From: an uncultured Clostridia bacterium
GTDB taxonomy: Bacteria > Bacillota > Clostridia > Oscillospirales > Acutalibacteraceae
Direction of reading: 5' to 3'
Length of the DNA: 58,541 nucleotides
Assembly (NCBI GenBank): GCA_947364045.1
Contig: CANARN010000007.1
Span: 1-58,541 of the forward strand
Shown here: positions 11,327 through 43,146 of the stretch, piece after piece
How positions within the stretch are numbered: the stretch's first letter is position 1
Layout of the letters: every line of letters starts with the position of its first letter
Notes under the pieces: model-generated
The model's database searches: none
What the model was told of the DNA's origin: nothing
What the model saw: only the letters and a program-made list of their open reading frames with translations
Program-made: the position numbers and the translations under genes

Positions 11327-13873
11327 TTAGCAGTACTTTGACAGCATAGAAAGAAGCATATCAATATCAATCGGCTTTGCAATATGCGCATTCATTCCGC
11401 ATGCCTTAGCTTTTGCAACGTCATCGGCAAAGGCGTCTGCTGTTGCTGCAATTATCGGGATATCGGCGTCGGGTCTGCTCAGCGCGCGGATTGCAGTTGC
11501 CGCTTCATAGCCGTTCATTACAGGCATACGAATATCCATTACAATCGCTTTGTATTCTCCGATTTCGGATTTAAGGAATTTTTCCACACACTCCTGACCG
11601 TTCTTTACCCAAGTCACGTCAAGTCCTGCCGCTGTGAGCATTTCAACTGCAATTTCGCCGTTCAGCTCATTGTCTTCTGCCAAAAGAACCTTTTGATTAA
11701 GCAAATAACCGCCTTTTGCGCCGTCAGAAGCTTCCTCTCCGTGCGGTTTATCAAGATGCGACGTTATTCCGTAGTAAAGCGTGGATTTAAACAACGGCTT
11801 TGACAAAAATCCGTTAATCCCCGCCTCTCTCATTCCGGATTCAAATTCAGAGCAATCATAAGCCGAAACCAGAATAATAGGCGTGTCATTGCCTGTGTAT
11901 TCTCTGATTTTCTTTGATGTTTCAATACCGTCAATTCTCGGCATCTGCCAGTCTATAAGTATAAATTCATACTCTCTCGGATTATTTTTAATCTTTTCGA
12001 TTGCGCTTTCACCGTCAACAAAGTATTCCGCTGACGCGCCCAATTCTTTAAGCATCTCAATTGCCGCAATACACTGATCCTCATCGTCATCTATTATTAA
12101 GACGTTAAGATTGTCCAAATGCATTTCTCTGTCAGCCGGCGAGTTTTTTTCAAAGTCAACCGTAAAATGAAATTCACTGCCTTCATTAAGCTTGCTTTTT
12201 ACCTCAATAGTACCGCCCATAGCGTCAACTAAATATTTTGTAATAGCAAGGCCAAGACCAGTTCCTTCCTCTTTGGTTGTGCGTTTACGGTCCTCGCGCT
12301 CAAAGCTGTCAAAAACAACCTTTACAAATTCCTCACTCATTCCTATACCGTTATCTTTTACTATGAAATGAGTGCGGACAAAGCTTTCGCCCTTAGGCGA
12401 TTTTTCCTGATTTACGGTAAGTGAAATCTCTCCGTTATCGGGAGTATATTTTACCGCGTTTGAAACTAAATTTATAAGGATTTGATTAAGCCTGAGATTG
12501 TCACAGTTAATGTACTCGGAAATAATATTTTTAACATAAATGTCAAACTTATGCTGCTTGTTTTTAACCTGCGGCTTCATAATCATTACGATATTTTCTA
12601 TACTTTCCCGCAAGGTTGTCTGAGTAAGAGAAAGCGTCATTTTACCGTTTTCAATTTTTGACATATCCAAAACATCATTTATAAGTAAAATTAAGTGGCG
12701 GCTCGACAGAGATATTTTATTAAGACAGTCCTCAATCCGCTCTTTGTCCTCAATATGCGAACGCGCCAATTCTGTCATTCCGACAATAGCATTCATGGGC
12801 GTGCGTATATCATGACTCATATTAGCAAGAAAATCCGTTTTTGCCTTACTCGCCTTAATCGCCTTTTGCTCACTCTTCTTCATTTTTTGAATTTGCTTAT
12901 ATGAAAGAATAACAAAACAAATAAAAAATGATAAAATTACCGCAACAAGAACTCCTGTATTTTTTATAAAAATATTGTCGCTGTTATCTCTTCTGTCCGA
13001 AAAAACCTGATTTATTTCATCATATCGAATAAAGGTAATTAAATACCAATCAGAATAATGAAGCGGAATTGCATAAAACATTCTGATTCCGTCTTCCATC
13101 ATAAAAGAATCTGTATAAATCTCGCCTTTATTCATCGCATTTTTAAAGCCTTCAATATAATCGTCCGCTGTCTTACCGTCGAAATCCTGATACATTGAAC
13201 GTACGCGGTCAAAATATGTAGCGCGGAAAGAACCCTCATTGCGCACAACAAAGGCAGAGTCTTTTTTACGGATTATAAAAGAATATGTTAAATTATCCTG
13301 ACCGTAAGCCAAATTGAAAACAGAGTTCATTGTATCTGTCGGAAATCCGCACAAAATACCTCTGTAATTTTTACCGTCCAAAGCAAATGCACTGTTGGCA
13401 ACCATACCGATAGCCTTTTTATTCTTGCTGTTTTCAATAAGCAATACTCTGTTTTTTTCTTTATTTATAACCTCGTTATAGCTTTCCGTATCATAAATAT
13501 GAAACGTAGCGTCTCCGCAAATGGTTTCCAAAGAGCCGTCGCTGTTAATCAGGGCAATGTAATTAACTCCTTCAGACATTTCTGTATTTATATGCGCTAC
13601 CGCCTTTTCCTTATCATTTAAAGAAATTGCGCTGTTCAAAACCTGGTCAATAAGCGCAAAACGGTTTTCAAAATATGTCTTTTCATGCGAAACAGTCTGA
13701 TTTCCGACGTTAGATATATACATACTGCTTACATCGTGTAACATCTGCTCGTTCTCTTTAGTTACCTGCCTGTCTACACTTATAAAAGTAAAAATAGTCA
13801 GGGGGATTATAACTAAAATTCCAAGGAAAGTACAAATCAACATAAAATGCTCTTTAAACCATTTTTTTGCCAT
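11327..13873 (-). CDS. Hybrid sensor histidine kinase with two receiver domains
   Basis: An 848-residue membrane protein. It has TM1 (about 11-32), an extracellular Cache-like sensor (about 40-300) and TM2 (about 306-325). The kinase core has H354 in NMSHDIRTP and the ATPase N-box ILINLVSNAV near 470. The G boxes are DNGIGM near 507 and EGTGLGLA near 537. REC1 has phospho-Asp D641 (LIDWQMP) and REC2 has D780 (VMDIRMP). It lacks an HPt domain, so phosphate probably leaves through a separate HPt protein; one such gene lies at 39748. The start at 13873 has AGGAG 8 bases upstream. The 36-residue longer reading overlaps the promoter and is rejected. Confidence 0.9.
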   Translation of the reverse strand: MAKKWFKEHFMLICTFLGILVIIPLTIFTFISVDRQVTKENEQMLHDVSSMYISNVGNQTVSHEKTYFENRFALIDQVLNSAISLNDKEKAVAHINTEMSEGVNYIALINSDGSLETICGDATFHIYDTESYNEVINKEKNRVLLIENSKNKKAIGMVANSAFALDGKNYRGILCGFPTDTMNSVFNLAYGQDNLTYSFIIRKKDSAFVVRNEGSFRATYFDRVRSMYQDFDGKTADDYIEGFKNAMNKGEIYTDSFMMEDGIRMFYAIPLHYSDWYLITFIRYDEINQVFSDRRDNSDNIFIKNTGVLVAVILSFFICFVILSYKQIQKMKKSEQKAIKASKAKTDFLANMSHDIRTPMNAIVGMTELARSHIEDKERIEDCLNKISLSSRHLILLINDVLDMSKIENGKMTLSLTQTTLRESIENIVMIMKPQVKNKQHKFDIYVKNIISEYINCDNLRLNQILINLVSNAVKYTPDNGEISLTVNQEKSPKGESFVRTHFIVKDNGIGMSEEFVKVVFDSFEREDRKRTTKEEGTGLGLAITKYLVDAMGGTIEVKSKLNEGSEFHFTVDFEKNSPADREMHLDNLNVLIIDDDEDQCIAAIEMLKELGASAEYFVDGESAIEKIKNNPREYEFILIDWQMPRIDGIETSKKIREYTGNDTPIILVSAYDCSEFESGMREAGINGFLSKPLFKSTLYYGITSHLDKPHGEEASDGAKGGYLLNQKVLLAEDNELNGEIAVEMLTAAGLDVTWVKNGQECVEKFLKSEIGEYKAIVMDIRMPVMNGYEAATAIRALSRPDADIPIIAATADAFADDVAKAKACGMNAHIAKPIDIDMLLSMLSKYC

Positions 13874-13942
13874 AACAACATCTCCTGCTGTGAAAAAATA
13901 TGTTACTCTGTTCCTGAGTTTTAAGTTCTGTAAATTGTAAAT

Positions 13943-14006: not shown

Positions 14007-14034
14007 GACCCTGCAAGATTTCTCTTGCAAGGTC
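14007..14034 (-). terminator. Terminator, probably the ancestral ppdK terminator
   Basis: A 12-bp stem, GACCTTGCAAGA / TCTTGCAGGGTC on the minus strand with a GAAA loop, followed by TTTTTGCTTTT. No intact gene now feeds it. It lies about 60 bases beyond the ppdK-tail copy at 14096-14116, as if it once ended ppdK before the island arrived. Confidence 0.75.
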
Positions 14035-14095: not shown

Positions 14096-14116
14096 CATCT
14101 CAGCGATTGCTGCCTG
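14096..14116 (-). repeat. Left direct repeat: copy of the ppdK 3' end (attachment-site-like)
   Basis: These 21 bases are identical to 17632-17652 inside the end of ppdK. On the minus strand they read in frame as QAAIAEM followed directly by TAA, that is, a correct ppdK tail. A weaker match continues a few codons upstream. Together the two copies bound a 3.5-kb segment holding the restriction-modification genes. Confidence 0.8.
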
Positions 14117-14131
14117 AGCTGCAACGCATAA

Positions 14132-14140
14132 ATGTAGGAG
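14132..14140 (+). repeat. Short direct repeat near the left end of the island
   Basis: ATGTAGGAG lies 15 bases inside the left 21-bp core and recurs at 17581-17589, 42 bases inside the right core, in the same orientation. In a circularised element the two would flank the core like integrase arm sites. Nine bases alone could be chance. Confidence 0.35.
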
Positions 14141-14146
14141 TTTTTA

Positions 14147-14197
14147 TTGACTTTTTTACTATTTTTGGATATCATAATATCAAGATACTATGATATC
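14147..14197 (+). promoter_or_regulatory. Promoter and operator of the restriction-modification operon
   Basis: TTGACT (14147-14152), 17 bases, TATCAT (14170-14175). The -10 lies inside a perfect 9-bp inverted repeat, GATATCATA (14168-14176) and TATGATATC (14189-14197), separated by 12 bases. The palindrome covers -10 to about +15 and is a plausible binding site for the ribbon-helix-helix protein encoded next. Confidence 0.7.
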
Positions 14198-14215
14198 ATT
14201 TTTGGAGGGTTGTAA

Positions 14216-14395
14216 ATGAACAAATCCAAAACTCCAACATCAGAAAAAATAGGTATCCCCTTACGATTGGAACCTGAATTATATGAAAAAATGATGGACA
14301 GAGTTCAAAAAGAAAAAAAGAACCAACGTGGATATAGTGTAAATCAACTTTTAACAGAACTTCTTGAAAAAGAATTAAAGGAGAAAAAAATATGA
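14216..14395 (+). CDS. Small ribbon-helix-helix (CopG/Arc-like) protein
   Basis: A 59-residue basic/acidic protein, shorter than usual gene-calling limits. It starts at ATG 14216 after GGAGGG and ends by an ATGA overlap with the nuclease-methylase gene. The IPLRLEPELYEKMMDRV strand-helix and the GYSVNQLLTELLEKEL helix fit the RHH_1 fold, in which a dimer inserts a beta-ribbon in the DNA major groove. By position it is the regulator of the restriction-modification operon, doing the job of a C protein, and the palindrome over the -10 is its likely operator. The function is inferred. Confidence 0.65.
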   Translation: MNKSKTPTSEKIGIPLRLEPELYEKMMDRVQKEKKNQRGYSVNQLLTELLEKELKEKKI

Positions 14396-16316
14396 CTCGT
14401 ACAGAAATGATTCTTCGTATTGGAAAAGAATATCACACTTCCAACATTGAAGGTGGAGAATATAGTTATGTTCAAGAAGCAGGTTCTAAAGCTAATCTTG
14501 AAAAAGCTCTCGGTCACAATTTTTCACATTTTAAACTTGACATCGGTTTGAGCTTAACGATATAGTTGTTCTTATAGAAACAAAACAATCATTTGTAAAA
14601 AATGATGAATCACAGCTTGCTAAATATGTTGAAGAGGAATTAGCATTACATAACGGAAAGAAAATTATTGCTATTCTTGCTAATACAAATAATGATGAAA
14701 TCAAGGTTTGGAAATCTACTGTAGATGATGAACATATTTTAACCAATGAAACTGTTCTTGATAGAATGGAACATTATGTTAGATTGTTTGACACAAACAA
14801 ACAGAACGACAGGGAAAAAGTATTGAAAAATACTTACGATTTAAATGAGCTACTCCACAAAATGGATATTAAAGAAGATTTGCGTAGTCAATTCGTAGGA
14901 ACAACTCTTCTATACATAAAAGATATAATAAGCAAAACAGGTGCTAATAATATTGATGATGGTTTAGTAAAAAGCCTTAAAGACACTTGGAAAATGATGT
15001 CTGCAGAAACTATTAGAGCGGCAATAAAAAGCACATTGGACGATTTGCTAGATGATTCTGACAATAAACAGAAAAAAATCGAACTACTTCAAAAAAATGT
15101 TCTTAACGACCAAAAAGTAAAAAAACTCAAATTAGAGCACTGGATAAAAATATTAGAAACAATTATTACTGACATCTATAAATACATTGATGCAGATAGT
15201 TCTGAAGGTCAGGACATATTAAACCTATTTTTTATTGCATTTAACAAATATACAGGCAAAGCTGACAAAAATCAGGCTTTTACTCCTGACCATATTACTG
15301 AATTTATGTGCAGATTAACAGATGTTGACCGAAGTAAAAAAGTTCTTGATGCAACATGTGGTAGTGGGTCTTTTTTGGTACAAGCTATGGTGAAAGAACT
15401 TGCAGATTGTCGCCGTGGTAAAACCGAAGAAGAAGCAAAAGAATTGATGGAAATCGTAAAGAAAAAGCATATTTTTGGAATAGAAAACGAAGAAAGAGCT
15501 TACGGTCTATCAACAACAAATATGCTTATTCATGGTGATGGAAACAGCAACATTAAATTTGAAAGTTGTTTCAAATGTAAATCTTTTATTAAAGAGGCTG
15601 ACCCAGATATAATTTTAATGAACCCACCTTACAATGCTAAACCTATTGGTATACCTAAAGAGTATAAGAAAAACTGGAAAAAGGCTGAAGATAAAAAAAC
15701 AGACCCCACAAAAGGTTTTGTTTTCATTCATTTTATTTCTGATGTTATAAATGAAATGAATGAAGAACTAGAACGAAACAACAAACCACGAAAGACTGTT
15801 AAACTTGCCGTTCTTCTTCCCGTTGCGGCGGCTATCGGAAATGGAAAAATTCTTAAAGAAGAAAAGTCTGATATGCTTAAACACAACACTCTTGAAGCTG
15901 TATTTACACTACCTAACGAAATATTTTATCCTGGTGCATCAGCATGTGCTTGTTGTATGCTTTTCACATTAGGACAACCTCATATCAAATCTGACGGAAA
16001 GGCCCACCCGACTTTTTTTGGATATTGTAAGGATGATGGATTTAAGAAAAAGAAAAACCTTGGTCGCATAGAACAATTTGATTCAAACGGCGATTCTATT
16101 TGGAAAAAAATAGAGGAAGAATGGCTCGATTTATATTCATTTAAAAGGATTGAAGACGGAAAATCTTCTATTGCTATTGTTGACGGTGATTCCGAATGGT
16201 TGTGCGAGGCATATATGAAAACCGATTACAGAAAGCTGTCCGAAAAAGATTTCCAACAAACCTTAAACAATTATTTGGCTCATTTAATAAAAGAAGGTGA
16301 AATATATGAAGCTTGA
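14392..16316 (+). pseudogene. BcgI-like nuclease-methylase (A subunit), frameshifted
   Basis: Starting at ATG 14392, the frame reads MTRTEMILRIGKEY and so on, then stops at TAG 14563-14565. From 14541 another frame takes over, giving RFELNDIVVLIETKQS and continuing without a break to 16316. One missing base between 14541 and 14565 explains this. Repaired, the protein would be 641 residues, close to the roughly 640 of BcgI A subunits. It would have an N-terminal PD-(D/E)xK-type nuclease (the IETK element at about 14571-14582) and a C-terminal N6-adenine methylase. There is no homopolymer or slippery heptamer at the site, so programmed shifting is unlikely. Either the nuclease is dead or a base is missing from the assembly. 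Confidence 0.75.
14766..16316 (+). CDS. N6-adenine DNA methylase part of the BcgI-like A subunit
   Basis: Intact 516-residue reading frame from the first in-frame ATG after the frameshift. It contains the SAM-binding motif D195-ATCGSGSF and the catalytic motif NPPY (286-289) of the HsdM-type gamma N6-adenine methylases, but not the N-terminal IETK nuclease element. No good ribosome site precedes 14766, so expression may be weak or depend on restart after the upstream stop. It overlaps the specificity gene by 11 bases. If translated, the pair could methylate DNA without cutting it. Confidence 0.7.
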   Translation: MEHYVRLFDTNKQNDREKVLKNTYDLNELLHKMDIKEDLRSQFVGTTLLYIKDIISKTGANNIDDGLVKSLKDTWKMMSAETIRAAIKSTLDDLLDDSDNKQKKIELLQKNVLNDQKVKKLKLEHWIKILETIITDIYKYIDADSSEGQDILNLFFIAFNKYTGKADKNQAFTPDHITEFMCRLTDVDRSKKVLDATCGSGSFLVQAMVKELADCRRGKTEEEAKELMEIVKKKHIFGIENEERAYGLSTTNMLIHGDGNSNIKFESCFKCKSFIKEADPDIILMNPPYNAKPIGIPKEYKKNWKKAEDKKTDPTKGFVFIHFISDVINEMNEELERNNKPRKTVKLAVLLPVAAAIGNGKILKEEKSDMLKHNTLEAVFTLPNEIFYPGASACACCMLFTLGQPHIKSDGKAHPTFFGYCKDDGFKKKKNLGRIEQFDSNGDSIWKKIEEEWLDLYSFKRIEDGKSSIAIVDGDSEWLCEAYMKTDYRKLSEKDFQQTLNNYLAHLIKEGEIYEA

Positions 16317-17466
16317 TGTTACCAAATGGAAACCATTTTTATTAGGCGATTTATTTTTTGTTAACTATGGTGTAAACTTAGAACTAAACGCCTGTGAAGA
16401 AGCAACAACAAAATCGTCTTCTAATATTAATTTTGTCTCAAGAACTGGTGATAACAACGGCGTATCAGCAAGAGTCGTTATAATAGAAGATATAGTGCCA
16501 CAAAAAGAAGGTCTTATTTCTATTGCGGGCGGTGGAAGTGTATTATCTACTTTTTTGCAAAACGAACCCTTTTATAGCGGAAGAGATTTATACACGCTTG
16601 AGTGCAAAGAAAAAATATCAAATGAAACAAAATTGTTTTTAATTACCGTAATCGAGCAAAATAAATACAAATACAGTTATGGTCGTCAAGCCAATAAAAC
16701 TCTTCCTTATATAGAGCTTCTTCTTCCAATTAAGTATAATAAGGATAACACTGCTGTAATTGATAATACTCATAAATTTTCAAAAGAGGGCTATGTTCCT
16801 GACTGGAATTATATGCAGGAATATATCAAAACATTACATTTCAAACCACTCAAAACCAAAAATCACAAATCAACCAACACACAATTGGACATTGATTCAT
16901 GGGAAGAATTCACATTCGCAGATATTTTTGTTTTAAAAGGTGGTTTTTATAACAAAAAGCCTGAACATTCGCAAGAGGGAAAAGTTGTATTTTTAGGTTC
17001 TACAGAAAACAATAATGGCGTTACAGAATTTTATAGTCTTGAGGATATCAAAAACTGGAATAAAACTGGCGACCCTGATAACACATTAGATAATAAAATT
17101 TATGAAGGAAATTGCATAGCAGTTACTGTTAACGGATCTGTTTGTAATGCTTTTTATCAGGCCGATGAATTCACTTGCAGTCATGATATAACTGCATTTT
17201 ATCTTAAGAAACATACGCTTAATTCTCATTTAGCCTTATTCCTATGCACTGTAATCATGCAAGATAAATATCGTTGGAGTTATGGAAGAAAGCCACATGA
17301 TGTTAAAAAATTTGCAAAATCAAATTTTAAACTCCCAATACTTAAAGACTGTAACGGATTACCTGTTGTAGACAGCGAAAAAACATATTCTGAAAAAGGT
17401 TATATTCCAGATTGGGACTTTATGGAAAATTATATAAAATCTTTGCCGTATGGAGATAGAATATAA
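16306..17466 (+). CDS. BcgI-like specificity (B/S) subunit with two recognition domains
   Basis: A 386-residue protein built as a tandem duplication. Each half begins with a W-x-x-F strand (WKPFLLGDLF, WEEFTFADIF) and ends with a conserved segment (GYVPDWNYMQEYIKTL, GYIPDWDFMENYIKSL). This is the layout of type I/IIB specificity subunits, in which each half reads one part of a bipartite site. ATG 16306 follows GAAGGTG; GTG 16297 is an alternative. The start overlaps the methylase end, indicating translational coupling. A strong terminator follows. Confidence 0.85.
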   Translation: MKLDVTKWKPFLLGDLFFVNYGVNLELNACEEATTKSSSNINFVSRTGDNNGVSARVVIIEDIVPQKEGLISIAGGGSVLSTFLQNEPFYSGRDLYTLECKEKISNETKLFLITVIEQNKYKYSYGRQANKTLPYIELLLPIKYNKDNTAVIDNTHKFSKEGYVPDWNYMQEYIKTLHFKPLKTKNHKSTNTQLDIDSWEEFTFADIFVLKGGFYNKKPEHSQEGKVVFLGSTENNNGVTEFYSLEDIKNWNKTGDPDNTLDNKIYEGNCIAVTVNGSVCNAFYQADEFTCSHDITAFYLKKHTLNSHLALFLCTVIMQDKYRWSYGRKPHDVKKFAKSNFKLPILKDCNGLPVVDSEKTYSEKGYIPDWDFMENYIKSLPYGDRI

Positions 17467-17471
17467 CAATA

Positions 17472-17500
17472 AAATGCGAGGTGGTTTTCACCTCGCATTT
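17472..17500 (+). terminator. Terminator of the restriction-modification operon
   Basis: A perfect 12-bp stem, AAATGCGAGGTG / CACCTCGCATTT, with loop GTTTT, running into TTTAAC just after the specificity gene. Confidence 0.92.
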
Positions 17501-17513
17501 TTTAACACAAAAA

Positions 17514-17541
17514 CTCCCCATATTCTTTCGAATACGGGGAG
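17514..17541 (-). terminator. Present ppdK terminator
   Basis: On the minus strand a 12-bp stem, CTCCCCGTATTC / GAATATGGGGAG (one G-U pair), with a GAAA loop is followed by TTTTTGTG. It lies inside the island, about 85 bases past the ppdK stop, so the island would have brought it. Confidence 0.85.
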
Positions 17542-17580
17542 CTGATTGCACATTTAATAGCTGTTATACAGCTACAACTG

Positions 17581-17589
17581 ATGTAGGAG
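17581..17589 (+). repeat. Short direct repeat near the right end of the island
   Basis: Second copy of ATGTAGGAG, matching 14132-14140. A 7-bp inverted repeat, TAGCTGT-TAT-ACAGCTA (17558-17574), lies beside it. Both sit in otherwise non-coding DNA between the two terminators and the right 21-bp repeat. Confidence 0.35.
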
Positions 17590-17625
17590 AAGTCGCAAAA
17601 CCCTTGATATTACTGGGTCTTCAAC

Positions 17626-20265
17626 TTATTTCATCTCAGCGATTGCTGCCTGTGCTGCTGCAAGACGTGCAATCGGAACACGGAACGGTGAGCAGGAAAC
17701 ATAGTCAAGACCGATTTTGTGGCAGAACTCAACAGATGAGGGATCGCCACCGTGCTCGCCGCAGATACCGCAGTGGAGTGACGGACGTGTTGCCTTACCG
17801 TTTTTAACTGCCATTTCCATAAGCTGGCCAACGCCTGTCTGGTCAAGCTTTGCAAACGGATCGTTCTCGAAAATCTTGTTGTCATAGTAAGCGTTAAGGA
17901 ACTTACCTGCGTCATCACGGCTGAAGCCGAATGTCATCTGAGTAAGGTCGTTAGTACCGAAGCAGAAGAACTCAGCCTGTGTTGCAATTTCACCTGCTGT
18001 AAGAGCAGCACGCGGAATCTCAATCATTGTACCAACTTCATACTTCATATCAACGCCTGCTGCTGCGATTTCAGCGTCAGCAGTAGCAACAACGATATCC
18101 TTAACGAACTTAAGCTCTTTTGTATCGCATGAAAGCGGAATCATAATCTCAGGAGCAACTGTCCAGTCTGCGTGTGCCTTCTGAACATTGATAGCCGCAC
18201 GGATAACAGCCTTAGTCTGCATCTTTGCGATTTCAGGATATGTTACTGCAAGACGAAGTCCGCGGTGACCCATCATGGGGTTGAACTCATGAAGAGAATC
18301 GATGATTGCCTTGATTGTTTCAACGCTCTTGCCCTGTGCGTCAGCAAGCTTCTGAATGTCAGCTTCTTCTGTCGGAACGAACTCGTGAAGAGGCGGGTCA
18401 AGGAAACGGATTGTAACGGGGCAGCCTTCAAGAGCTTCATAAAGCTTCTCAAAGTCTGACTGCTGATAAGGAAGAATCTTCTCAAGAGCTGCTTCTCTCT
18501 CTTCAACAGTGTCTGAGCAAATCATTTCACGGAATGCTGCGATTCTGTCTGCCTCGAAGAACATATGCTCTGTACGGCAAAGACCGATACCCTCAGCGCC
18601 CAATTCTCTTGCCTTCTTAGCGTCAGCAGGAGTATCAGCATTTGTACGAACCTTGAGTTTTCTGTACTTGTCAGCCCAAGCCATAATTCTGCCGAATTCG
18701 CCTGCAATCTGAGCGTCAACAGTCGGGATAATACCGTCATAAATGTTACCTGTTGAACCGTCGATTGAAATATAGTCGCCCTCGTGGAACTCTTTGCCTG
18801 CGAGAGTGAATTTCTTATTTTCTTCATCCATAATGATTTCGCCGCAGCCTGATACACAGCAAGTACCCATACCACGTGCAACAACTGCTGCGTGTGAAGT
18901 CATACCGCCGCGAACTGTAAGGATACCCTGAGCAGCCTTCATACCTGTAATGTCTTCAGGTGATGTTTCAAGACGAACAAGAACTACCTTTTCGCCCTTA
19001 GCATTCCAGCTTTCTGCATCGTCAGCAGTAAATACGATTTTACCGCAAGCAGCACCGGGAGATGCGCCGAGGCCCTTGCCCATAGGAGTTGCAGCCTTAA
19101 GAGCTTTTGCATCGAACTGCGGGTGAAGAAGTGTGTCGAGGTTTCTGGGGTCAATCATAGCAACTGCCTCAGCCTCTGTCTTGTGACCCTCGTCAACAAG
19201 GTCGCAAGCTATTTTAAGAGCAGCCTGTGCTGTTCTCTTACCGTTACGGCACTGGAGCATATAGAGTTTCTTGTTTTCAACAGTGAACTCCATATCCTGC
19301 ATATCGTGGTAGTGATTTTCAAGAATGTCGCATACTTTAATAAATTCAGCGTATGCTTCGGGGAATTCTTTCTCCATCTGAGCTATGGGCATCGGTGTAC
19401 GAACACCTGCAACAACGTCCTCGCCCTGTGCATTGATAAGGAACTCACCCATAAGCTTATTTTCGCCTGTAGCAGGGTCACGTGTGAAGGCAACGCCTGT
19501 ACCTGACTCGTCATTAAGGTTACCGAATACCATAGGCATTACGTTAACAGCAGTACCCCATGAATAAGGAATGTCGTTGTCGCGGCGGTAAACGTTTGCA
19601 CGGGGGTTATCCCATGAACGGAAAACAGCCTCAATAGCAAGCTTTAACTGCTGAACGGGGTCAGACGGGAAGTCTTCGCCGAGCTGCTTTTTGTACTCTG
19701 CCTTGAACTGCTCTGCAAGCTCCTTAAGGTCAGCAGCTGTAAGCTCAACGTCAAACTTAACGCCCTTCTTTTCTTTCATAGCGTCGATAAGCTGTTCAAA
19801 ATACTTCTTACCAACTTCCATAACAACGTCAGAGAACATCTGAATGAAACGTCTGTAAGAGTCATAAACGAATCTCTCAAACTTAGGATCTGAATTGCCT
19901 GCAATCATAGCGGCAACAACCTCATCGTTAAGACCGAGGTTAAGGATTGTGTCCATCATACCGGGCATTGAAGCACGTGCGCCTGAACGAACTGAAACGA
20001 GAAGAGGATTTTTAAGATCGCCGAACTTTTTGCCGTTGATCTCTTCCATCTTTTTAACGCCTTCCATAGCCTGAGCCATGATTTCTTCATTAATCTGTCT
20101 GCCGTCTTCATAGTACTGTGTGCAAGCTTCTGTTGTGATTGTGAAGCCCTGCGGAACGGGAAGACCGATAGCAGTCATCTCAGCAAGGTTAGCACCCTTA
20201 CCGCCGAGAAGGTTACGCATGGTCATGTCGCCTTCGCTGAACATATAAACCCATTTGTTTGCCAT
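17626..20265 (-). CDS. ppdK: Pyruvate, phosphate dikinase
   Basis: Interconverts pyruvate, ATP and phosphate with PEP, AMP and pyrophosphate; in anaerobes it often runs in the glycolytic direction. The 879-residue protein has the full three-part architecture. It shows the N-terminal ATP-grasp domain (GGKGANLAEM at 21-30), the swivelling phosphohistidine domain with H458 in GGMTSHAAVVARG, and the C-terminal PEP/pyruvate barrel with catalytic C835 in GICGEHGGDP. The ATG has GGAGG 8 bases upstream. The last codons (QAAIAEM, then Lys and TAA) lie within the right repeat of the restriction island, so the final Lys codon and stop were probably supplied by it. Single-gene transcript. Confidence 0.97.
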   Translation of the reverse strand: MANKWVYMFSEGDMTMRNLLGGKGANLAEMTAIGLPVPQGFTITTEACTQYYEDGRQINEEIMAQAMEGVKKMEEINGKKFGDLKNPLLVSVRSGARASMPGMMDTILNLGLNDEVVAAMIAGNSDPKFERFVYDSYRRFIQMFSDVVMEVGKKYFEQLIDAMKEKKGVKFDVELTAADLKELAEQFKAEYKKQLGEDFPSDPVQQLKLAIEAVFRSWDNPRANVYRRDNDIPYSWGTAVNVMPMVFGNLNDESGTGVAFTRDPATGENKLMGEFLINAQGEDVVAGVRTPMPIAQMEKEFPEAYAEFIKVCDILENHYHDMQDMEFTVENKKLYMLQCRNGKRTAQAALKIACDLVDEGHKTEAEAVAMIDPRNLDTLLHPQFDAKALKAATPMGKGLGASPGAACGKIVFTADDAESWNAKGEKVVLVRLETSPEDITGMKAAQGILTVRGGMTSHAAVVARGMGTCCVSGCGEIIMDEENKKFTLAGKEFHEGDYISIDGSTGNIYDGIIPTVDAQIAGEFGRIMAWADKYRKLKVRTNADTPADAKKARELGAEGIGLCRTEHMFFEADRIAAFREMICSDTVEEREAALEKILPYQQSDFEKLYEALEGCPVTIRFLDPPLHEFVPTEEADIQKLADAQGKSVETIKAIIDSLHEFNPMMGHRGLRLAVTYPEIAKMQTKAVIRAAINVQKAHADWTVAPEIMIPLSCDTKELKFVKDIVVATADAEIAAAGVDMKYEVGTMIEIPRAALTAGEIATQAEFFCFGTNDLTQMTFGFSRDDAGKFLNAYYDNKIFENDPFAKLDQTGVGQLMEMAVKNGKATRPSLHCGICGEHGGDPSSVEFCHKIGLDYVSCSPFRVPIARLAAAQAAIAEMK
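17632..17652 (-). repeat. Right direct repeat within the ppdK 3' end
   Basis: Exact 21-base match to 14096-14116, encoding QAAIAEM of PpdK. It marks the right boundary of the restriction-modification island. The coding sequence is restored across the junction. Confidence 0.8.
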
Positions 20266-41019: not shown

Positions 41020-41236
41020 GGACAGGCGTGGAAACCTGTCCCTACTTGTCGCCCCTGAAAGGGCGTGGGCATCCGGTGGATGCCGAATTAACGCTGTCTG
41101 AGCCGGCAGGCGAGTAATGGAGATGTCAACAAAGTTGACAGAGGGGTTTATTAGTAGTCAATAAAAAACAACCCCTCAGTCTCGCTAACGCTCGACAGCT
41201 CCCCTTACAGGTGAGCCGAGAGTCATCTGTCCCTAC
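41020..41236. repeat. Composite intergenic repeat, about 217 bases
   Basis: It begins with hairpin GGACAGG / CCTGTCC (41020-41041), then holds GGCATCC-GGT-GGATGCC (41068-41084) and TGTCAAC-AAA-GTTGACA (41124-41140). CTGTCCCTAC occurs at both ends (41036-41045 and 41227-41236) as a 10-bp direct repeat, as if one element had inserted in another. The interior closely matches 42925-43146. Confidence 0.7.
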
Positions 41237-41245
41237 TCTAACAGA

Positions 41246-41623
41246 TTATTCATTTACTCCGTTTTTTATAAACTCAATCAGTTTTTGAGTATCGTCAAAA
41301 TCGTCATAGTCGCCGAATATTCCGTTACGGTGATAAACAACGCCTTTTTTCTCATTAGTTTCAAGGCAGTCAAGCAAATATTCTTCACCGTATTTTTTGG
41401 CAAACAGCGTAAATGCATACGGTTTAATTTTGCTTAAAAGCCCCATTTTACAATCTCTGTCACACTCATAGCAATGCTCTATCCCTTTTTCAATTGAACA
41501 TTTTCTGTTTTCGCATAAGTGTTTATCAGGGCAATCACCCGAATTACAGCCTGCGCATTTGTCATTTTCAGAGCACAGACAGCAAGCAAGTCCGCACCTT
41601 GCAATCCCCAAATCTCTTTTCAT
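41246..41623 (-). CDS. Cysteine-rich DUF3795 protein
   Basis: A 125-residue protein with 13 cysteines in its N-terminal 60 residues, in paired motifs such as CGLACCLCSENDKCAGC and HCYECDRDC. This pattern defines DUF3795, and the cysteines probably bind zinc or an Fe-S cluster. Function unknown. It lies 15 bases after the peptidase-like gene, so it is probably cotranscribed. ATG with GGGGAAT upstream. Confidence 0.8.
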   Translation of the reverse strand: MKRDLGIARCGLACCLCSENDKCAGCNSGDCPDKHLCENRKCSIEKGIEHCYECDRDCKMGLLSKIKPYAFTLFAKKYGEEYLLDCLETNEKKGVVYHRNGIFGDYDDFDDTQKLIEFIKNGVNE

Positions 41624-41638
41624 TATTAATTCCCCTAT

Positions 41639-42220
41639 TTATGTATCTCTCTCATAACAAATTGCGTCTTCGTCTGTCAGGGCGAGGACTTTTTTATGAT
41701 GCTTTTTTAATTCTTCAAAATATTCGCGTCTGTCCTCGGTGAAATGGCAGATTAAATAACCTTCAAAAAGGTTCAATCCTTTAAACTCCGTGAGCGAGGT
41801 ATTATTTTCGTCATATTTTGACACGTGTGAAAAATCGGTGCAGGCAATGTGCGCACCTGCGCTTCCGCCGATATAAACCGCTCCGTTTTTTACCATTCTT
41901 ACAATTTCATCGGTGAAATTACATTCTTTTAAGCGTTCAAACGTGCCGAAGGTGTTCCCTCCGCCTATGTAAACTGCATCAAAATTCCGACCGAAAAACG
42001 GCTCGCAGTCATAATAGTTAAACACTGAAATATTTTCTTCCGAAAAGCCTGCTTCAAGCAGTCTCGGAATATATTTTTTATTTTTAATACGCCTAATATT
42101 AGCCTTTTCATTCGGGATAAAAAGTACCTTGCAATCCTCTATGGGCTTGCCTAAATTTTCAAGAATTACCTGCTTGGATTTTTCATTTTTAAAATCGCAG
42201 GATGATAAAATCAGTTTCAT
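41639..42220 (-). CDS. Peptidase E-like (S51 / class I glutamine amidotransferase-like) protein
   Basis: A 193-residue protein of the dipeptidase E group. GGGNTFGTF (87-95) and the nucleophile elbow with S120 in GGSAGAH are present. Known members hydrolyse N-terminal Asp dipeptides, but many relatives are uncharacterised, so the substrate is uncertain. It has its own promoter and a roughly 100-base leader with a long hairpin. Confidence 0.82.
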   Translation of the reverse strand: MKLILSSCDFKNEKSKQVILENLGKPIEDCKVLFIPNEKANIRRIKNKKYIPRLLEAGFSEENISVFNYYDCEPFFGRNFDAVYIGGGNTFGTFERLKECNFTDEIVRMVKNGAVYIGGSAGAHIACTDFSHVSKYDENNTSLTEFKGLNLFEGYLICHFTEDRREYFEELKKHHKKVLALTDEDAICYERDT

Positions 42221-42242
42221 TTGCTGTTCCTCATTTTTTCTC

Positions 42243-42284
42243 TTTACGGCATTTCACTGTCAGGCAGTGTGAAATTTCCGTAAA
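42243..42284 (-). promoter_or_regulatory. Leader hairpin of the peptidase E-like / DUF3795 operon
   Basis: Outer arms TTTACGG (42243-42249) and CCGTAAA (42278-42284) and inner arms ATTTCAC (42251-42257) and GTGAAAT (42269-42275) form a long interrupted stem within the 5' leader. No terminator-like U-run follows. Role unknown. Confidence 0.4.
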
Positions 42285-42326
42285 CAGTTTTCATAACAAA
42301 ACGCCTAAAAAATAAATTCTAATTCA

Positions 42327-42354
42327 ATTATACACTAATTCCTATGAATTTCAA
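42327..42354 (-). promoter_or_regulatory. Promoter of the peptidase E-like operon
   Basis: Minus-strand TTGAAA, 16 bases, TATAAT, giving a leader of about 100 bases before the ATG at 42220. Confidence 0.65.
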
Positions 42355-42406
42355 GAACAGTAATAAAACCGTCTGAAAAGCATATATTTATTTTGAGGTG
42401 GGGAAA

Positions 42407-42880
42407 ATGCGGAAGAAATACAGGACATTCATAATATTAATTTCTGTTTCGCTTGCAATCGGGGGATTTTCAGCGCTTCTTACAAGTGGGAATATGCAGC
42501 TTTTTGACGAGATAAGCAAGCCTCCGCTCTCTCCGCCCGCATTTCTGTTCCCTGTGGTGTGGACAATTCTTTACATTCTTATGGGGTTTTCAAGCGCAGT
42601 AGTATTTGAGCACCGAAAATTCAAAAAAAGAGAAGCCGAAACAGGTCTTATTTTGTATGGCGTTAACCTGTTTCTAAACTTCTTTTGGAGTATAATATTC
42701 TTCAATTTCAGAGCATACACATTTGCATTTGTCTGGCTGCTGATTTTGTGGTCGGTAATCCTCGCTATGATTGCGCAGTTTTATAAGGTCAACAGGCTCT
42801 CAGCATATTTGCAGATTCCGTATTTTATTTGGGTAACATTTGCAGGATATTTAATTCTCGGAATAAGCATATTAAATTGA
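42407..42880 (+). CDS. TspO/MBR-family protein
   Basis: A 157-residue membrane protein with five predicted helices. The family hallmarks are PPLSPPAFLFPVVWTILYI (near 42) and the tryptophan/asparagine-rich helix LFLNFFWSIIFF. TspO binds tetrapyrroles and is linked to stress and porphyrin handling; the role in this organism is not known. GAGGTGG lies 5 bases before ATG 42407; the GTG at 42398 falls in the ribosome site. Confidence 0.9.
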   Translation: MRKKYRTFIILISVSLAIGGFSALLTSGNMQLFDEISKPPLSPPAFLFPVVWTILYILMGFSSAVVFEHRKFKKREAETGLILYGVNLFLNFFWSIIFFNFRAYTFAFVWLLILWSVILAMIAQFYKVNRLSAYLQIPYFIWVTFAGYLILGISILN

Positions 42881-42924
42881 AATAGCAGTAAACACGGGTT
42901 TTGGAGGACGTTCCTTACAAAATT

Positions 42925-43146
42925 CTTGTCGCCCCTGAAAGGGCGTGGACATCCGGTAGATGCCGAATTAACGCTGTCTGAGCCGGCAGGTGAGTAATGG
43001 AGACGGGGCAGAGTTTACAGAGGGATCTTGTCGCCCCTGAAAGGGGAGATGTCAACAAAGTTGACAGAGGGGTTTATTAGTAGTCAATAAAAAATAACCC
43101 CTCAGTCTCGCTAACGCTCGACAGCTCCCCTTTCAGGGGAGCCGAG
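42925..43146. repeat. Composite intergenic repeat with 15-bp inverted ends, about 222 bases
   Basis: Part A (42925-43003) matches 41046-41122, including the CATCCGGT...GATG and GAGCCGGCAGG blocks. Part B (43034-43139) is a clean 106-bp unit with perfect 15-bp inverted ends, CCCCTGAAAGGGGAG and CTCCCCTTTCAGGGG. It encloses TGTCAAC-AAA-GTTGACA and no ORF. CTTGTCGCCCCTGAAAGG starts both parts. MITE-like; it fills the gap between tspO and argF. Confidence 0.7.

Follow-up and report, generated by a model that had tools for sequence, protein, structure and literature searches.

A restriction-modification segment at the 3' end of ppdK in an uncultured Clostridia bacterium appears to belong to a family of small exchangeable gene cassettes

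We analyzed a stretch of 58,541 nucleotides (the window) from an uncultured Clostridia bacterium of the Acutalibacteraceae (assembly GCA_947364045.1, contig CANARN010000007.1; genome G000). In the window a segment of 3,536 bp (14117-17652) with restriction-modification (R-M) genes lies at the 3' end of ppdK, the gene for pyruvate phosphate dikinase, and between two exact copies of a 21-mer. On the minus strand the left copy reads QAAIAEM-stop, while the right copy reads QAAIAEMK-stop and is the actual end of ppdK. By rough arithmetic of our own, about 4e-4 such exact pairs are expected by chance in 58.5 kb. When the DNA of G000 was searched with the left junction, both copies were recovered. 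The identical 21-mers reading as the PpdK tail in frame, as described in a first-pass annotation of the sequence, were confirmed.

The genomes sampled were 39 of the same genus and 398 of the family, G000 included. PpdK was matched in 36 of the 39 genus genomes, two of which, G021 and G029, held only a paralogue of 30-37% identity. In G019, of the same genus, ppdK ends once and is followed by a hairpin and then by the same sensor kinase gene that adjoins the left repeat in the window (66% identity), with no R-M gene in between. Because the window hairpin at 14007-14034 aligns with the hairpin after ppdK in G019, the left side represents the old downstream region of ppdK, and the right side a new gene end with its own terminator. 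G018 has the same hairpin 3' of its ppdK, and in G004 it lies on the outer side of the left core repeat. G019 is therefore the empty site with a single core and the old terminator that the first-pass annotation had predicted, and its proposals that this hairpin once terminated ppdK and that integration restored the reading frame are both upheld. We regard it as almost certain that the segment is a site-specific insertion in the 3' end of ppdK.

Inspection by eye showed no trace of ppdK upstream of the left core; thus the left copy is not the end of a separate decayed ppdK paralogue, which had been named as an observation that would speak against an insertion. A tRNA gene as target was also rejected, as ARAGORN found no tRNA in the window. 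The scan for terminator-like hairpins gave 9 in 9.7 kb compared to 7.1 expected from shuffled sequences. Since this is barely above expectation, single hairpin matches are weak evidence, and we relied on conservation instead, that is on the presence of hairpin 14007-14034 in relatives and of hairpin 17512-17543 in the right arm described below. The features of the locus are listed in Table 1. Elsewhere in the window, at 41045-43070, long direct repeats in up to three copies were seen, which are unrelated to the ppdK insertion.

Table 1. Positions of genes and sequence elements at the ppdK insertion in the window
Feature	Position	Strand	Basis or remark
Hybrid sensor kinase/response regulator, chromosomal neighbour adjoining ppdK in the empty site	11327..13876	-	Open reading frame (ORF) and profile match
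Former terminator of ppdK, now separated from it on the outer side of the left core	14007..14034	-	Hairpin scan; same hairpin directly 3' of ppdK in G019 and G018
Left core repeat (attL side)	14096..14116	-	
Left arm TCCTACATTTATGCGTTGCAGCT, putative attP half-site	14117..14142	-	Same arm in G027 and G030; variants in G348, G041, G227 and G013
Promoter-like hexamers (14147-14175) and an inverted repeat (14168-14181/14184-14197) that overlaps them	14147..14197	+	Candidate operator
Ribbon-helix-helix (RHH)-like protein of 59 aa, probable regulator	14216..14395	+	RHH assigned by eye; YlcI/YnfO matched weakly, below cut-off; nothing matched in Pfam
N-terminal piece (57 codons) of the M gene, out of frame with the rest	14392..14565	+	Intact 650-aa homologue in G318
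Open C-terminal part of the M gene, fused endonuclease-N6 methylase (type IIG-like)	14544..16316	+	N6_Mtase 3.5e-24; REase_MTase_IIG 4e-40; 79% identity to G318
Specificity subunit (S gene), type II specificity	16306..17466	+	Methylase_S in two stretches; Specificity_II models
Second terminator-like hairpin, at the S gene 3' end	17471..17501	- (as reported; stem symmetric)	Hairpin scan
Right arm: ppdK tail and stop, conserved spacer, terminator	17505..17652	-	About 140 bp
Terminator-like hairpin now 3' of ppdK, within the right arm	17512..17543	-	In 6/6 aligned arms, changed in G392
ppdK, pyruvate phosphate dikinase, the target	17626..20265	-	ORF; TIGR01828 1375.8 bits; last codons and stop now from the inserted segment
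Right core repeat (attR side), read in the ppdK frame	17632..17652	-	

The cargo of the segment is predicted to be a type IIG-like R-M pair. PADLOC models for a type IIG restriction endonuclease-methyltransferase and for type II specificity matched the two larger genes, and a fused endonuclease-methylase next to a specificity subunit is what type IIG/IIB systems with a separate S subunit contain. The enzyme gene is broken, as the frame of the M gene (14392-16316) is lost near 14,540. Its intact relative in G318 is 79% identical over the open part and lies beside another small regulator; it is located near a contig start, on a separate contig from ppdK. We take the window pair to be similar to the BcgI-like type IIB systems or to type IIG enzymes with a separate S subunit, with the difference that the enzyme gene is broken here and that activity is putative. 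The first-pass annotation had listed an RHH gene, a methylase and a specificity gene; three such genes are present, the first of them RHH-like, but for the methylase the highest-scoring models are those of fused type IIG endonuclease-methylases, and its gene is frame-broken. A Pfam scan of the ORFs of the segment found no recombinase and no tyrosine integrase, in agreement with the earlier statement that an integrase is absent from it. The inverted repeat at 14168-14197 lies between the promoter-like site and the RHH gene and is possibly an autoregulatory operator. The scan for promoter-like sites returned 39 compared to 28.6 expected.

Both ends of the segment were found in other genomes. The left arm, searched as a 29-base pattern with at most three mismatches, was present in three of the 39 genus genomes (G000, G027, and G030) with no control matches. 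An exact 20-mer from it was found in two records of genome contigs, both metagenome-assembled genomes of uncultured Clostridia, and in none of the viral contigs searched. The right arm was likewise found in three genus genomes (G000, G013, and twice in G027), and in seven of the 398 family genomes at E<=1e-5, as a long match in G000, G041, and G392 and as a short one in G056, G200, G214, and G355. It had no match among phages and plasmids at 1e-5. With a query of 121 bp the identity was 97% in G041, 95% in G013 and at both G027 loci, and 92% in G392 (94.7-96.7% without G392). G041 belongs to another genus, and its arm is 96.7% identical to that of the window compared to 79% for the ppdK DNA. 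The six arms align over about 140 bp, and the homology ends after the terminator. The pairs of the folded right-arm RNA were mostly invariant, with a double change in one of 35 pairs, and therefore there is no case for a conserved RNA fold beyond the hairpins.

The six right arms flank six different cargoes. The type IIG-like pair of the window is replaced by a type II restriction endonuclease and a methylase in G027:C5, by TIR, HEPN, and SPFH genes in G027:C4, by a gene for 144 aa in G041, by a gene for 180 aa in G013, and by a glycosyltransferase gene with another gene in G392. A search for the same core beside different cargo, which the first-pass annotation had recommended, was thus positive, the second R-M pair in G027:C5 being one example.

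Altogether 14 att-to-att segments of 0.66-6.8 kb were listed in 12 sources, with the spacing limited by the script to 0.3-8 kb. Besides the window segment these were 2,010 bp in G027:C5 (restriction endonuclease and N6/N4 methylase), 5,875 bp in G027:C4 (L049 5402-11276; TIR-TPR, HEPN, and SPFH proteins, recombinase-free), 660 bp in G041, 791 bp in G227, 1,197 bp in G214, 3,424 bp in G348, and 2,241, 6,753, and 913 bp in G392. The remaining four are single-gene segments in tandem in G013:C41 (L060 8138-12027; 721, 1,048, 864, and 1,256 bp). A partial gene for a large serine recombinase (LSR) was present in the 3,424-bp and the 6,753-bp segment. In the other 12 of 14 no LSR was detected, and Pfam found no recombinase in any of their 18 ORFs of at least 100 aa. 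Tandem cores were seen in G013, G027, G041, G183, G326, and G392, those of G326 on a separate contig from its ppdK. The motif of core, tail, and stop occurred 51 times in 48 chosen sources, 29 times at the end of ppdK itself and 22 times elsewhere, two of the latter looking fortuitous (a copy within ppdK and an opposite-strand copy in G326). A base-shuffled control of five-fold length held 7 copies, which corresponds to about 1.4 expected. The loci were picked for relevance, so neither motif nor segment counts are frequencies. The first-pass annotation had considered a protein-coding target and such a small cargo unusual. They are less so, since ppdK is a known site of conjugative elements in Bacteroidota (PMC11005914) and segments of 0.7-3.5 kb recur at sites of this kind.

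Some of these loci deserve a separate remark. The G027:C4 segment is possibly a defence system, with a PADLOC match for 0/3 of its proteins, and a tyrosine integrase (PF00589) is encoded near this array at L049 1981-3234. Among the proteins encoded in the G013 array are one of the radical SAM-SPASM type and a methyltransferase similar to ICMT/PEMT. In G348 a ParA-like gene, recognized by eye (L134 2572-3243), ends just before an LSR gene without the N-terminal catalytic part (1166-2569), which looks like a deletion product.

The first-pass annotation had read the locus as a tyrosine-recombinase island. Instead, LSR genes or their C-terminal pieces were found to adjoin the core in G004, G009, G011, G056, G182, G183, G326, G392, and others. 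In G011 an island of about 29 kb starts at ppdK and ends with the gene for an LSR of 594 aa (L110 8544-10328; Resolvase and Recombinase domains), the 3' end of which lies over the core. In G182 and G183, ppdK, LSR, and core are on one contig. A different kind of LSR, together with a half-site of the CCCC type, is present in G004, G009, and G056 (L203 4463-6238 in G056). In trees, the LSRs located at the core group into a single clade, which had 13 rows and a support of 99/99, or 14 rows and a support of 99 by a quick method when G056 was included. The best NCBIfam matches of the G011 enzyme were CcrB (127.8 bits) and CcrC (123.9 bits), far below the cut-off of 900. We are confident that the recombinases of the site belong to the LSR class, with a distant relationship to CcrB/CcrC. 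Among 82 ORFs of at least 150 aa from 12 island stretches, none matched PF00589 at 1e-4 (an added tyrosine integrase control did), while relaxases (4), ParB (5), Resolvase (4), Recombinase (3), and many R-M domains were found. The two LSRs of G000 fall outside the core-LSR clade in a tree of 30 rows. PF07508 was found in G000 only on contigs other than the window, so the segment differs from an SCC-like (staphylococcal cassette chromosome-like) LSR island in having no ccr-type LSR of its own.

At seven of seven ppdK ends examined, which were chosen for looking so, a second reading frame continues without a stop from the core and encodes a peptide resembling an LSR C-terminus (G001, G011, G027:C18, G182, G183, G318, where it is cut by the contig end, and G326:C10; loci L059, L075, L069, L144, L137, L162, and L163). 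In the natural junction of G326:C1 (L140 2673, minus strand) the frame of an LSR of 615 aa runs uninterrupted through the core. As the LSR frame continues across the core, attP seems to lie inside the LSR gene in such islands, and integration seems to swap the 3' ends of ppdK and the LSR gene. The window segment has no LSR frame overlapping the core.

We consider it reasonably probable that the segment is a recombinase-free, SCC-like gene cassette at ppdK, mobilized in trans by the LSRs of autonomous islands at the same site. Conservative site-specific recombination at the core in the last ppdK codons would insert 14117-17652. Since the right arm already contains an end for ppdK together with a terminator, the ppdK frame would survive; the left arm would serve as half-site. 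The recombinase would come from autonomous islands of related Clostridia that integrate at this ppdK site as well, and enzymes of the core-LSR clade may act on the arms of the window. Different cargo would then travel between near-identical arms, and segments could stack in tandem. In G000 the cassette is probably stuck, because an LSR of the clade was not found there and the enzyme gene is frame-broken.

Several points weigh against such a cassette or limit the case for it. No excision, circle, or transfer was seen. The relatives are draft assemblies, of which G011 with the clearest full island is in 340 contigs with 9% contamination, and loci were picked because they matched. G004 and G009 show only C-terminal LSR pieces. 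The LSR tree of 30 rows carries a long-branch warning, and 4 of the 14 clade rows lack a detected core, G214 being at a contig end, G260 degenerate, and G111 and G289 unexplained. The right arm was matched in the seven family genomes above, four of them with partial matches. The half-site pattern TCCTAC-N16-18-CAGGC was found in 10 of the 398 family genomes with 3 control matches. Five of the 10 have a ppdK-type site (G000, G041, G183, G227, and G348), in G068 and G162 the stretch that was read contained nothing matching ppdK, and the remaining three are G226, G270, and G271. Dyad symmetry of the half-sites peaked at 0.38 for 14 natural junctions, compared to a mean of maxima of 0.33 and a highest value of 0.389 in shuffles, and 13 native ppdK ends (attB) peaked higher, at 0.44. 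Finally, LSR remnants adjoin the same left arm in G027, G030, and G348, and therefore decay also happens.

These remnants lead to the main rival explanation, by which the segment is a cis-mobilizable element (CIME), that is, a decayed remnant of an ordinary LSR island from which integration and transfer genes were deleted so that attL, attR, and the R-M genes were left. We hold this to be possible but somewhat doubtful. The window segment does retain both att sites and lacks integration genes, and its M gene is frame-broken. Full islands commonly carry R-M genes as well, the 3.4-kb segment of G348 combines a ParA-like gene with an LSR lacking its catalytic start, and it is established that elements decay to CIMEs and then undergo accretion (PMC5704250). 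However, random deletion poorly explains why an arm of about 140 bp stands beside six cargoes with homology ending at the terminator, and it fares no better with four single-gene segments in tandem. In the window itself no LSR remnant was seen.

An island of the tyrosine-recombinase type appears very improbable. Gene ends are typical targets of tyrosine integrases (PMC5704250), and Bacteroidota conjugative transposons use ppdK, with the integrase class not given in the text of PMC11005914 that was searched. The one PF00589 integrase near the G027:C4 array is, however, outside the att-to-att segment, and the absence of PF00589 from the island ORFs and the repeated presence of LSRs at the core argue against such an island. 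It is hardly credible that the R-M genes came to lie here through an assembly artefact or because two repeats of the ppdK end underwent homologous recombination. Contigs of relatives do break at the repeats (G004, G005, and G009), but a single contig reads through both junctions in the window, the search of G000 gave two core copies, and the same architecture is present in other genomes.

The ppdK 3' end has been described as attB of 19 PvCTn-like conjugative transposons in Bacteroidota, which regenerate the stop codon within three residues and of which virtually all carry R-M genes (PMC11005914). They share with the window the gene end and an attB motif in the last ppdK codons. They differ in being conjugative and in belonging to another phylum; the searched text of that paper does not state the integrase class and does not contain recombinase-free single-gene cassettes. 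Apart from it, a search of titles and abstracts of open-licence papers gave none that dealt with serine recombinases in islands at ppdK or with cassette arrays dependent on such enzymes.

By analogy, the closest mechanism would be that of SCC and composite SCC at rlmH. SCC, pseudo-SCC, and composite SCC are LSR islands at a conserved gene end, with repeats in the last codons, tandem composites, and R-M cargo in related elements (PMC10061031), and the window shows the same insertion in a conserved gene 3' end with gene-end repeats. It is not an SCC in the strict sense, which has rlmH as target and a Ccr above the curated cut-off; here the target is ppdK, and the G011 LSR scored 127.8 vs. 900. 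In addition, many segments are one-gene and recombinase-free, and the hosts are uncultured Clostridia. The accretion arrays and CIMEs of the ICESt1 type also contain segments bounded by attL and attR without integrase, in tandem with autonomous elements (PMC5704250). At ppdK, by contrast, the cargo between near-identical arms varies from genus to genus, and the recombinase of the site is of the serine type.

Integron gene cassettes are likewise small, hold one or two genes between two recombination sites, and form arrays beside a fixed site. The ppdK segments differ from these in that the arms carry a gene end and a terminator and that LSRs instead of IntI are present at the site. No integrase was matched among the ORFs scanned from the window segment, and no dedicated search for IntI or attC was made. 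We give even chances to the broader idea of a serine-recombinase counterpart of integrons, with the ppdK 3' end as docking site at which recombinase-free cassettes of one or two genes with standard arms (gene end and terminator on one side, half-site on the other) would be traded across genera, stacked, and moved in trans by CcrB-like LSRs from islands that are resident or passing through, the LSR gene spanning att in some islands.

Taken as a whole, the segment appears to belong to a family of small, exchangeable gene cassettes of uncultured Clostridia. The overlap of the ppdK and LSR frames at att would be a testable switch, as integration should truncate the recombinase. If the reading is true, these bacteria would have a route other than integrons for exchanging single genes and defence operons in cassette form, with a metabolic gene as the fixed locus. 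SCC-like biology would then no longer be confined to staphylococci, and new natural attB/attP pairs for LSRs would become available.

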